Positions 7,858 through 59,023 of a stretch of 64,000 bases of DNA are shown one piece after another. The stretch comes from Bacteroidales bacterium. GTDB taxonomy: Bacteria > Bacteroidota > Bacteroidia > Bacteroidales > UBA932. The number at the start of each line of letters is the position of its first letter. Within the stretch, counting starts at the first letter, position 1. Position numbers and translations under genes: made by a program. The notes beneath the pieces are model-generated. The model was not told the origin of the DNA, ran no database searches, and saw nothing but the letters and a program-made list of their open reading frames with translations. Location of the stretch: contig JAFPVJ010000017.1 of the NCBI GenBank assembly GCA_017400135.1, positions 96,118-160,117 on the forward strand, written 5' to 3'.

Positions 7858-7862
7858 ATCGC

Positions 7863-7897
7863 AAAAAAGCAACGCCGAAACTCGGCGTTGCTTTTTT
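7863..7897 (-). terminator. Terminator of tRNA-Phe, usable from both sides
   Basis: Symmetrical hairpin GCAACGCCG / CGGCGTTGC flanked by six A on one side and six T on the other. On the minus strand it begins directly after the tRNA-Phe 3' end; on the plus strand it can end galM transcription. Confidence 0.9.
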
Positions 7898-7898
7898 G

Positions 7899-7971
7899 TG
7901 GTGCTGGTAGGAGTTGAACCGACGACACATGGATTTTCAGTCCATTGCTCTACCACCTGAGCTACAGCACC
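7899..7971 (-). tRNA. tRNA-Phe (GAA)
   Basis: 73-base cloverleaf on the minus strand. The acceptor stem is GGTGCTG / CAGCACC with discriminator A; the D arm contains AGCTCAGGTGGTAGAGC; the anticodon loop is CTGAAAA with anticodon GAA; the T arm contains GGTTCAACTCC. The CCA end is not encoded. It has its own promoter (7984-7991) and terminator (7863-7897). Confidence 0.96.
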
Positions 7972-56945: not shown

Positions 56946-58196
56946 ATGAAAGATCAATTTGTACTGAAGGCTTACGAGATTGCCAAGGAACGCTATGCCG
57001 CGCTCGGCGTTGATACCGAGAAGGTACTGGCACAGCTCCAGGACTTCCACCTGTCCCTGCATTGCTGGCAGGCGGATGACGTGACGGGCTTCGAGAGCGC
57101 CGGCGACCTGACCGGCGGCATCCAGGCGACCGGCAACTATCCGGGCAAGGCCCGCAACATGAAGGAGCTCCGCGCCGACATCCTGAAGGCCAAGAGCCTG
57201 ATCCCGGGCAACCACCGTCTCAACCTGCATGAGATCTATGGCGACTTCCAGGGCGAGAAGGTCGACCGCGACCAGGTCGAGCCGCGCCATTTCGCCAGCT
57301 GGATCGAGTGGGGCAAGGAGAATGACACCAAGCTCGACTTCAACTCGACCTCTTTCTCCCATCCCAAGAGCGGCAACCTGTCTCTGGCCAACCCGGACAA
57401 GGGCATCCGCGATTTCTGGATCGAGCACACCAAGCGCTGCCGCGCCATCGCCGAGGAAATGGGCAAGGCCCAGGGCGATCCCTGTATCATGAACCTCTGG
57501 GTGCATGACGGCTGCAAGGACGTGTCCGTCAAGCATTATCTCTATCGTTCGCTGCTGAAGGATTCCCTGGACCAGATCTTCAAGAAGAAATACAGCAACA
57601 TGAAGGACTGCATCGAGGGCAAGCTCTTCGGCATCGGCCTGGAGTCTTTCACCGTCGGTTCACACGACTTCTACACCGCATACGCGGCCGCCAACGGCAA
57701 GATTCCGACGATCGACACCGGCCACTATCATCCGACCGAGAGTCCGGCCGACAAGGTGTCCGCTCTGCTCAATTTCGTGCCTGAACTGATGCTGCACGTC
57801 AGCCGTCCGATCCGCTGGGATTCCGACCACGTGACGATCATGGACGATCCTACCCTGGATCTCTTCTTCGAAATCGTCCGCGCCGACGCCCTGGAGCGCG
57901 TGCATTACGGCCTCGACTATTTCGATGGTGCCATCAACCGCATCGGAGCCTACGTGATCGGTTCCCGTGCTGCGCAGAAGTGCATGCTGCGCGCTCTGCT
58001 GGAGCCGCGCGACCTCATCGGCAAGTATGAGCTGGAGGGCAAGACCTTCCAGGTGCTGGCCCTCTTCGAGGAAGGTAAGGTCATGCCTTGGAACGCCGTC
58101 TGGGATATGTTCTGCCTGAAGAACAACGTTCCTGTCGGAGATGGCTTCATCCCCGAAATCGAAAAGTACGAGCGTCAGGTGCTGTCGAAGCGCTAG
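56946..58196 (+). CDS. rhaA: L-rhamnose isomerase
   Basis: 416 aa enzyme, near the E. coli length of 419. It converts L-rhamnose to L-rhamnulose with a divalent metal. Strongly family-like stretches include LSLHCWQADDVTGFE, NLHEIYGDF, DFNSTSFSHPKS and IDTGHYHPTESPADKVSALL, and WDSDHVTIMDD with metal-site residues. RhaB, RhaD and RhaT are not in the window; the only neighbours are the AraM-like gene (27 bases upstream) and a convergent hydrolase overlapping by four bases. Confidence 0.96.
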   Translation: MKDQFVLKAYEIAKERYAALGVDTEKVLAQLQDFHLSLHCWQADDVTGFESAGDLTGGIQATGNYPGKARNMKELRADILKAKSLIPGNHRLNLHEIYGDFQGEKVDRDQVEPRHFASWIEWGKENDTKLDFNSTSFSHPKSGNLSLANPDKGIRDFWIEHTKRCRAIAEEMGKAQGDPCIMNLWVHDGCKDVSVKHYLYRSLLKDSLDQIFKKKYSNMKDCIEGKLFGIGLESFTVGSHDFYTAYAAANGKIPTIDTGHYHPTESPADKVSALLNFVPELMLHVSRPIRWDSDHVTIMDDPTLDLFFEIVRADALERVHYGLDYFDGAINRIGAYVIGSRAAQKCMLRALLEPRDLIGKYELEGKTFQVLALFEEGKVMPWNAVWDMFCLKNNVPVGDGFIPEIEKYERQVLSKR

Positions 58197-59023
58197 AGGC
58201 GCTGGAGAATCGCAGGAATGAGGAGCGCCTTGAGGTGCTCCTCTTCCATGAAATGGGTGCCGTCGTAGAGGGTCCAGGTGTCGGGCCCGAAGCGGCGGCG
58301 CCAGTCTTTGAGGGAGACGATGCCGGTGCGGCGGTAGTGGTCGCGGCGGCCGAAAAAGGCGTGGATAGGAGCCGGGGCGCCCTGGCCCCGAAGCTGCGAA
58401 GACTTGGACCCTTCGGGGAATGCACCTTCAGGGCCAGGGTGCCCCGGCTCTGAAGGGCGCACGAGACTTGCTGCTGCGAGGGCTGTGGCGCGGTGCGGAC
58501 CCCAGGCAGCCATGTTCTCGGGAGTGAAATCGAGGAACTGGCGGCGGCCTTCCCGCGCTTTGTACCAGTGGTTCATCAATCGGTGGAACCAGCGGAGGCG
58601 GACCAGGCCGCGGATGCGGTGGAAGAAGACCGGCCCGTTCAGGGCGGGGGAGACCAGCAGCAGCGGAAATGCCGGAAGGGCATTCGATGCCGACGGGGGC
58701 GCCACGGTTTGCGGGTGCATTCCCCCGGAGGGGTCAAAGTCTCTGCACCCGTGAACCGTGGTGGCTCCGTCGGCCCAGGAACTGCGCCGTGCCAGCAGCG
58801 CCAGGGCGTGGACCGAACCCAGGGATTCGCCGATCACCAGGTCCGGCCGGAGTTCGTCGTACCAGGCGTCGATCTGTGCCGCGGCGCGGTCAGGGTTGAA
58901 ATCGTACGTGCGCACGACAACCCGCACATCCGGGCGATGTTTCCCGAACCATTCGTCCAGGATCGAAGGGATGCGGCTGTCCTCGCCGCCGCCCATGCCG
59001 TGGATATACAGGATCGTCTTCAT
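58193..59023 (-). CDS. Alpha/beta hydrolase carrying two palindromic in-frame insertions
   Basis: 276 aa serine hydrolase. Triad candidates are Ser68 in GESLGS, Asp228 in FFGRRDHY and His257 in DGTHF; oxyanion-side start YIHGMGG. Without residues 84-112 and 192-218 the protein would be about 220 aa, usual for small esterases. Those two stretches are encoded by inverted-repeat DNA (58689-58774 and 58370-58449) and are Gly/Pro/Ser-rich. The first lies after the nucleophile helix and the second just before the strand with the acid residue, both likely surface loops, so function may survive. Three bases after the CDF transporter gene. Substrate unknown. Confidence 0.8.
   Translation of the reverse strand: MKTILYIHGMGGGEDSRIPSILDEWFGKHRPDVRVVVRTYDFNPDRAAAQIDAWYDELRPDLVIGESLGSVHALALLARRSSWADGATTVHGCRDFDPSGGMHPQTVAPPSASNALPAFPLLLVSPALNGPVFFHRIRGLVRLRWFHRLMNHWYKAREGRRQFLDFTPENMAAWGPHRATALAAASLVRPSEPGHPGPEGAFPEGSKSSQLRGQGAPAPIHAFFGRRDHYRRTGIVSLKDWRRRFGPDTWTLYDGTHFMEEEHLKALLIPAILQRL
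58370..58449 (-). repeat. Palindromic element copy B, in frame in hydrolase gene
   Basis: Arms 58370-58388 and 58431-58449 (19 bases, one mismatch) flank a 42-base loop. The loop core on the minus strand (58426-58395) starts GGTGCATTCCCC and ends GCA. Nested CCCCGAAG / CTTCGGGG (58386-58393 / 58411-58418) allows an alternative stem. It encodes hydrolase residues about 192-218. Confidence 0.82.
58689..58774 (+). repeat. Palindromic element copy A, in frame in hydrolase gene
   Basis: Arms 58689-58719 and 58744-58774 (31 bases, 26 pairing) surround a 24-base apical loop. The core on the plus strand (58714-58747) matches the minus-strand core of copy B at 28 of 32 aligned bases with two one-base gaps. 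It encodes hydrolase residues about 84-112 from the antisense side. Confidence 0.82.

Follow-up and report, generated by a model that had tools for sequence, protein, structure and literature searches.

We propose that two segments of a hydrolase-like gene are members of a family of non-autonomous insertion elements, palindromic in form, which move and whose stems are renewed by the copying of one arm onto the other, a reading to which we give a probability of about 0.68. Both segments lie in the window, by which we mean the whole 64,000-nucleotide stretch of DNA analyzed here. The host gene (58193..59023, minus strand) encodes 276 aa, is open through both inserts, and its product matches the Pfam family UPF0227 weakly (17.9 bits, with a cut-off of 21). 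Copy 1 (58689..58774, plus strand) is antisense to the gene, has 31-bp arms around a 24-base loop, and codes for approximately residues 84-112. Copy 2 (58368..58451, minus strand) is sense to the gene, has arms of about 30 bp and a 22-base loop, and codes for approximately residues 191-219. Several columns of the conserved loops (58720..58743, plus strand, in copy 1; 58399..58420, minus strand, in copy 2) are invariant or nearly so across copies.

The initial annotation had described the two hairpins as opposite-facing copies of one element inserted in frame, and most of this description holds. The first hairpin has the 31-base arms with 26 Watson-Crick pairs attributed to it, and the frame is indeed kept through both inserts. 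The second exists at the site indicated, but with arms of 29-30 bases, 3-4 mismatches and the wider limits given above, in place of the 19-base arms first reported. Likewise, the loops of the two copies match and belong to a dispersed family in either orientation, but the likeness is confined to the loop, the two stems being dissimilar. In each of four folds (both hairpins, each strand) the folding energy was better than in 200 of 200 shuffles (z -5.9 to -8.4). A covariance model which was itself built partly from these two copies scores copy 1 at 76.7 bits (E 3.6e-15) and copy 2 at 77.7 bits (E 2e-15), and its scan of the window gave nothing with E < 0.04 beyond both hairpins and their opposite-strand readings. 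One weak match at 7860-7900 (plus strand; 19.4 bits, E 0.042) is probably due to chance. At two mismatches the 12-base core of the element is unremarkable within the window (7 found, 8.2 expected).

Orthologs of the hydrolase were sought at the protein level in 61 genomes, and matches were found in 20, including the query's own. We read 18 loci, one per genome, from the 19 other genomes, the nineteenth (L077) being a fragment. Distant orthologs might all have carried both segments, an observation that the initial annotation had set against its own proposal; instead, 17 of the 18 lack them. An alignment of 14 orthologs shows all 14 without residues 75-114 and 188-213, spans that contain or overlap both elements (a gap being a column gapped in at least 80% of rows, with borders fuzzy by several residues). 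The further four comprise L064, L067, and L069, also without both segments, and L060 (genome G010), in which both sites carry shorter extra loops. The peptide of these loops is unrelated, so that the hydrolase loops tolerate length change in the genus even without the element; the G010 genome gave no match to either of the family's covariance models (R1 and R2, below). At the DNA level, the hydrolase region has no match in a closely related second species (G061, below) other than one copy of the element.

The element recurs throughout the genome in which it was found (G000, a 2.31-Mb draft). Allowing up to one mismatch, the core GGTGCATTCCCC occurs 34 times in the whole draft, versus 6 for a reversed-pattern control; among 30 matches inspected, 16 are hairpins of the family and 2 more are cut by contig ends, the remainder being chance. 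From 14 copies which align gap-free in both arms, with indels in the loop alone (alignment A1), we built the covariance model R1, which at E <= 1 returned 46 rows on G000 corresponding to 35 distinct places; three of these are truncated at contig ends, and the lowest-scoring is a half copy. A pattern scan of an 84,980-species collection led us to the second species, CAMOTB01 (G061), a MAG of an uncultured Bacteroidales and a close relative, to which five of the eight contig stretches found belong; the remaining three (SAR324, Robiginitalea, and Gemmobacter) contain no long hairpin and were rejected. R1 finds 39 places in G061 at E <= 0.01. The initial annotation would have been undermined by a core found nowhere else and had anticipated copies between as well as within genes: with some 35 places in G000, and dozens of copies of both kinds dispersed in G000 and G061, these expectations are borne out. 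Several copies end at contig ends (G000:C24:78777-78816, C16:39628-39672, C22:36932-36981; G061:C27:2-75); the hairpins thus seem to break assemblies, and the copy counts represent lower bounds.

In other genomes of the genus, R1 has matches in 2 of 36 (G007 and G036), and in none of 24 genomes of other genera. Model R2, based on 51 copies (alignment A2: 25 of the 35 G000 places, 22 of the 39 G061 places, and 4 of G007), matches 11 of 38 genomes, namely G000, G061, and 9 of the 36 others of the genus; G036 is matched by R1 and not by R2. Many of the 18 R2 matches that we drew have near-perfect stems of 26-30 bp, and loops recur within each of the sets G007/G021 and G028/G019. The match L197 was unconvincing. 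A second small hairpin (GTCGCGAAGCGAC) is found within the conserved loop of L181, L191, and L193 (G028) and of L185 (G019). Because covariance models reward any long stem, the single R2 matches in G008, G015, G018, G023, and G035, each with its own loop, may be look-alikes. Among 295 genomes drawn from across the order, the own genome alone was matched, but sensitivity was low: at 15 candidates per genome and under strict filters, this search recovered 15 of the approximately 35 own-genome places and can miss copies. In viral contigs a single pattern match (L219) folds without a long stem and was taken as chance. No earlier description of such a family was found among the titles and abstract openings examined from the open-access PMC literature; as far as the literature searched shows, the family is new, and it is so far limited to one Bacteroidales genus and G061.

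The element measures approximately 85-110 bp, with a stem of 28-31 bp. The left arm (28-31 bases) ends in GCA, the loop (20-24 bases) reads TTCCCC(C)GAAGGG(G)TT.., and the right arm begins with TGC. Strong conservation is confined to the loop (GCATTCCCC..AGGG..CTGC) and the neighboring pairs, the rest of the stem having a weak consensus. The stems are variable between copies yet complementary, a point that the initial annotation had missed. In A1, 91.9% of the stem cells are paired, versus 58.2% for shuffled sequences and no more than 48.3% after sliding, with 150 two-sided changes. The corresponding values in A2 are 93.3% and 55.3% (shuffles), with 602 two-sided changes, 35 one-sided wobble changes, and 106 unpaired cells, 66 of the latter falling in the three pairs at the foot of the stem and the one next to the loop. 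Outside the stem, information exceeds 0.35 bits at position -10 alone, on one side; a weak flank motif lies mostly 10-16 bases out and was not used as a boundary. A subfamily also keeps its outer ends (L050, L012, L094, and L096, with the G061 copies L146, L148, and L151), and three of its members (L012, L094, and L096), each in an ORF unrelated to the others, are near-copies, with a further near-copy at G061:C49.

The mismatches that do occur were counted on the loop's strand, over the inner 26 pairs, in 67 copies of the two species: 31 of the 35 G000 copies (those omitted as cut or half being C24:78777, C22:36932, C16:39628, and C4:48541) and 36 of the 39 G061 places. G.T mismatches number 85 versus 23 A.C (p 1.5e-9, assuming independence of the copies), and 24 versus 8 among the copies that a sequence pattern had identified on its own (p 0.007). 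The fold of one strand may therefore matter, for example in a transposition intermediate; the G.T excess would fit RNA-level selection or strand-biased mutation, too.

Thirteen of the 31 scored G000 copies reside inside ORFs. Their hosts are the hydrolase (two copies), truB, ROK, GH65, phosphoglucomutase, DnaX, HrpB, MFS, MFS_2/cellulase, PriA, an FGE-sulfatase/BNR ORF, and one ORF without family, and those of G061 have TruB, MurB, 3-dehydroquinase/EPSP-synthase, amylase, GHMP-kinase, and DUF4434 domains; in G000 and G061 alike, truB contains a copy. Copies that touch ORF ends (L032, L041, and L054) or lie in doubtful family-less ORFs (L033 and L035) were assigned to the intergenic class. Genic copies are the more decayed, with a mean of 8.9 mismatches of 31 versus 2.6. 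Homologs of known structure give the sharpest insert borders: against the solved HrpB 6eud, the alignment runs to residue 46 and resumes from 46, query residues 71-95 (about 25) being extra, and in MurB query residues 256-293 (38 residues) stand opposite 8 chain residues of 4jay; for phosphoglucomutase and PriA, the alignments to PDB chains are too distant near the insert to place borders. We also considered that one arm could be the native target and the other its inverted copy, and rejected this, as in the hydrolase, HrpB, and MurB the extra segment comprises the two arms.

The orientation and frame of 19 genic copies were scored. Thirteen are antisense and six sense, nine are read in phase 0, nine in phase 2, and one in phase 1, whose scarcity is perhaps due to a stop that the loop's GGTTAA yields in one frame; open frames per copy (3.8 of 6) are barely more numerous than in shuffles (3.5). 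The initial annotation had envisaged a mobile palindrome that tolerates translation in either direction: both orientations do occur in genes, but the frames are used unequally, and its mobility is something that we infer from other evidence (below). Two further ORFs deserve mention here. In L048:543-2660 (G000:C5) the element sits in the linker between FGE-sulfatase and BNR domains, and may have fused two genes. L200:1990-3984 (G061:C31) holds a helicase-like ORF, probably RecQ, in which copies of a different repeat appear to be translated (GKPQDD.., VILSEAKDL..), presumably hairpin repeats.

A comparison between the two species, whose common DNA stretches are approximately 73-91% identical, provides clues on how the stems change. 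Four orthologous copies (L036/L122, L049/L116 in truB, L047/L118, and L040/L132) were identified by stem similarity or shared gene, and their arms were compared with the loop as anchor. Over 123 pairs, 82 are unchanged and 20 are mismatched in at least one species, the two-sided changes comprising 10 double transitions, 10 double transversions, and 1 double indel. Both arms changed jointly in three of the four copies; L040/L132 has zero two-sided changes, which counts against arm copying. In three further copies (L127, L134, and L140), gaps in one arm have their counterpart at the corresponding position of the other. Since double transversions and matched indels are expected from arm copying and are hard to reach through separate compensating mutations, it is likely that arm copying by template switching renews the stems. 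At the shared sites L034, L035, L055, and L056 stem likeness is no higher than among unrelated copies (background mean 0.46, 99th percentile 0.71). The unlike stems at several shared intergenic sites imply either very fast turnover or separate insertions at the same sites (hot spots). Extracts of published work describe comparable processes: in yeast, template switching homogenizes the arms of inverted repeats, with multi-base changes in coding inverted repeats (PMC8604942), and in the mitochondria of Nematomorpha coding palindromes have arms evolving in concert, with template switching named as a possible mechanism (PMC6649704).

We infer that the element is mobile from its dispersal, its near-copies in unrelated genes, and its presence or absence between the two species. 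In G061, the pairs at C81:2765-2944 and C25:12772-12939 are absent from G000 between aligned flanks. The borders of these empty sites are blurred, the intergenic sequence having diverged and the flanks not aligning to the base (at C81 the BLAST ends overlap by 5 bases), and the G000 empty sites facing the G061 pairs gave no clean target-site duplication. At C25 both species have an ordinary terminator-like hairpin, which in G061 has the pair as its neighbor and in G000 has none; the element has thus not taken the place of a terminator at this site.

As to a mobilizer, Y1/RAYT-like matches occur in 34 of 38 genomes, with 6 in G000 and 5 in G061. We read 24 stretches around Y1-type genes (some overlapping), which cover 5 of the 6 G000 matches, all 5 of G061, and other genomes in part, and these contained zero full copies; a RAYT gene carrying the element on its flanks was accordingly rejected among the genes examined. 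At a distance of about 2.2 kb from one Y1-type gene, whose frame has a stop, there is half a copy, consisting of the loop and the right side (21.3 bits). A second palindrome family, TGCNCCCAATGG..CCATTGGGNGCA, was observed at L112:1840-1945 (G000:C3), upstream of a 308-aa Y1/RAYT-like gene of which it is perhaps the own REP; palindromes of this type also occur in L122 and L128 (G061:C25), between two copies of the main element. The PF01797 match pointing to the Y1 gene scores 21.8 bits, below the family cut-off of 23. In the part of the genome read, no parent transposon was seen that shares the ends of the element, ends which one subfamily keeps.

Several other explanations have to be weighed. 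The copies might represent a structured RNA or a bidirectional 3'-end element (a terminator or mRNA stabilizer), maintained by selection on the RNA fold and ordinary compensatory mutation. This would account for the strongly maintained pairing of the stem, for mismatches on one strand being mostly G.T (85:23), and for the location of 9 of the 18 intergenic G000 copies between convergent ORFs, many about 5-30 bases from an ORF end and G061 likewise in part (strand calls follow rough codon usage, and for L036 the ortholog comparison indicates opposite strands). We nevertheless consider it unlikely. None of those 18 copies has the T-run of an intrinsic terminator (more than 5 T per 8 bases at the stem foot) on either strand, and at nine loci no Rfam family reached its gathering score, all matches being far below. 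Genic copies take both orientations, the pair at C25 adjoins an ordinary terminator-like hairpin that G000 has without the pair, and steps through wobble pairs would hardly yield double transversions or matched indels.

Yet more doubtful, in our judgment, is that the copies are genuine REP/REPIN elements belonging to a RAYT transposase of the same genome. The abundance of Y1/RAYT-like matches speaks for it, as do the seven close pairs in G061, six of them in opposite orientation in the manner of REP dimers, and the seemingly favored fold of one strand; the 28-31 bp stems, however, far exceed the 5-13 bp given for GTAG families in the extracts available of PMC3733652, no GTAG- or CGTC-like tag is prominent beside the stem, many copies are intragenic, and the Y1 genes examined have no full flanking copy, that of L112 having a different palindrome family upstream. 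An artifact of assembly or amplification generating chimeric inverted repeats might be suspected where copies end at the contig ends of draft genomes, but it is very improbable given that the same loop stands at dozens of places in independently assembled genomes, that copies preserve the reading frame of conserved genes, and that the truB copy is common to two species. Finally, the idea that the hydrolase segments are native lineage-specific loops draws on the gene being open through both and on the extra loops of L060, yet it is scarcely credible when nearly all orthologs lack both segments and the same DNA occurs in unrelated genes and intergenic spaces.

Under the preferred reading, that of a moving palindromic element with self-renewing stems, we envisage the following scenario. 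The element would be moved by an enzyme supplied in trans, one candidate being an HUH/Y1 "RAYT-like" transposase; this enzyme would probably recognize the hairpin of a single strand, by way of the loop and perhaps also of the ends. Insertions would persist at sites of low cost: downstream of stop codons, in the gaps between convergent genes, or, when the frame is preserved, in protein regions able to accommodate approximately 28 extra residues. A mutation in one arm would be transferred to the other through fold-back synthesis (template switching), and in consequence the stem would drift fast but stay paired, with mainly the loop retaining its sequence. More tentatively, the family could constitute a novel class of mobile hairpin in bacteria, whose heritable identity resides mainly in the loop (perhaps also the outer ends) and whose stem of up to 31 bp is continually rewritten from itself, possibly at each transposition via a single-stranded intermediate, so that new stems translated within genes would provide fresh peptide loops (as in TruB, MurB, and HrpB).

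The family would represent a bacterial palindrome family outside Rickettsia inserted in frame in many conserved genes. With dozens of copies, two close species, and shared sites, it offers a natural data set for watching the copying of inverted-repeat arms, and it makes testable how hairpin elements without an enzyme of their own move and whether template switching alone keeps long palindromes paired. It also calls for caution, as the inserts put about 28 unrelated residues into core enzymes of these genomes.

In its behavior the element resembles the Rickettsia palindromic elements (RPEs), a likeness that does not by itself make it one of them. Both are small palindromes of one bacterial group, found in intergenic DNA and in frame in unrelated conserved genes. 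According to extracts of a review (PMC10969869), RPEs are about 150 bp long and fall into ten families, each encoding a conserved peptide; the present element, in another phylum, is of about 85-110 bp, uses both strands and several frames, and has no conserved stem sequence, and its genic copies, distributed over orientations and phases in the numbers given above, do not share a conserved peptide. Prokaryotic MITEs, as portrayed in the same extracts, are similarly short and non-autonomous, with inverted repeats, but here neither a parent transposon, in the part of the genome read, nor a clear target-site duplication was found, and identity lies in the loop and not mainly in terminal repeats. 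With GTAG- or CGTC-tagged REP elements, as the portions consulted of PMC3733652 and of the RepRanger paper (PMC12306157) describe them, it shares dispersed hairpins, often in opposite-facing pairs, and a plausible strand-specific hairpin; it differs in its longer stem, in the absence of either tag at the stem foot, in not standing beside the RAYT genes examined, and in not being confined to extragenic DNA (13 of 31 G000 copies being genic).

Parallels outside bacteria are again taken from extracts of the reports cited. The mitochondrial palindromes of Nematomorpha are also inverted repeats in coding genes with concerted arms, but both of their arms encode conserved gene parts and they are not a dispersed element (PMC6649704). 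Template-switch homogenization in yeast would be the same mutational process, though acting on inverted repeats at large and not on an element family (PMC8604942). The hairpins of sponge and Volvox organelles (PMC2800124, PMC2670323) are likewise dispersed repeats thought to be mobile or selfish; the loops of Volvox measure 3-5 nt, and the sponge elements present the opposite arrangement to ours, with conserved stems and loops that vary.
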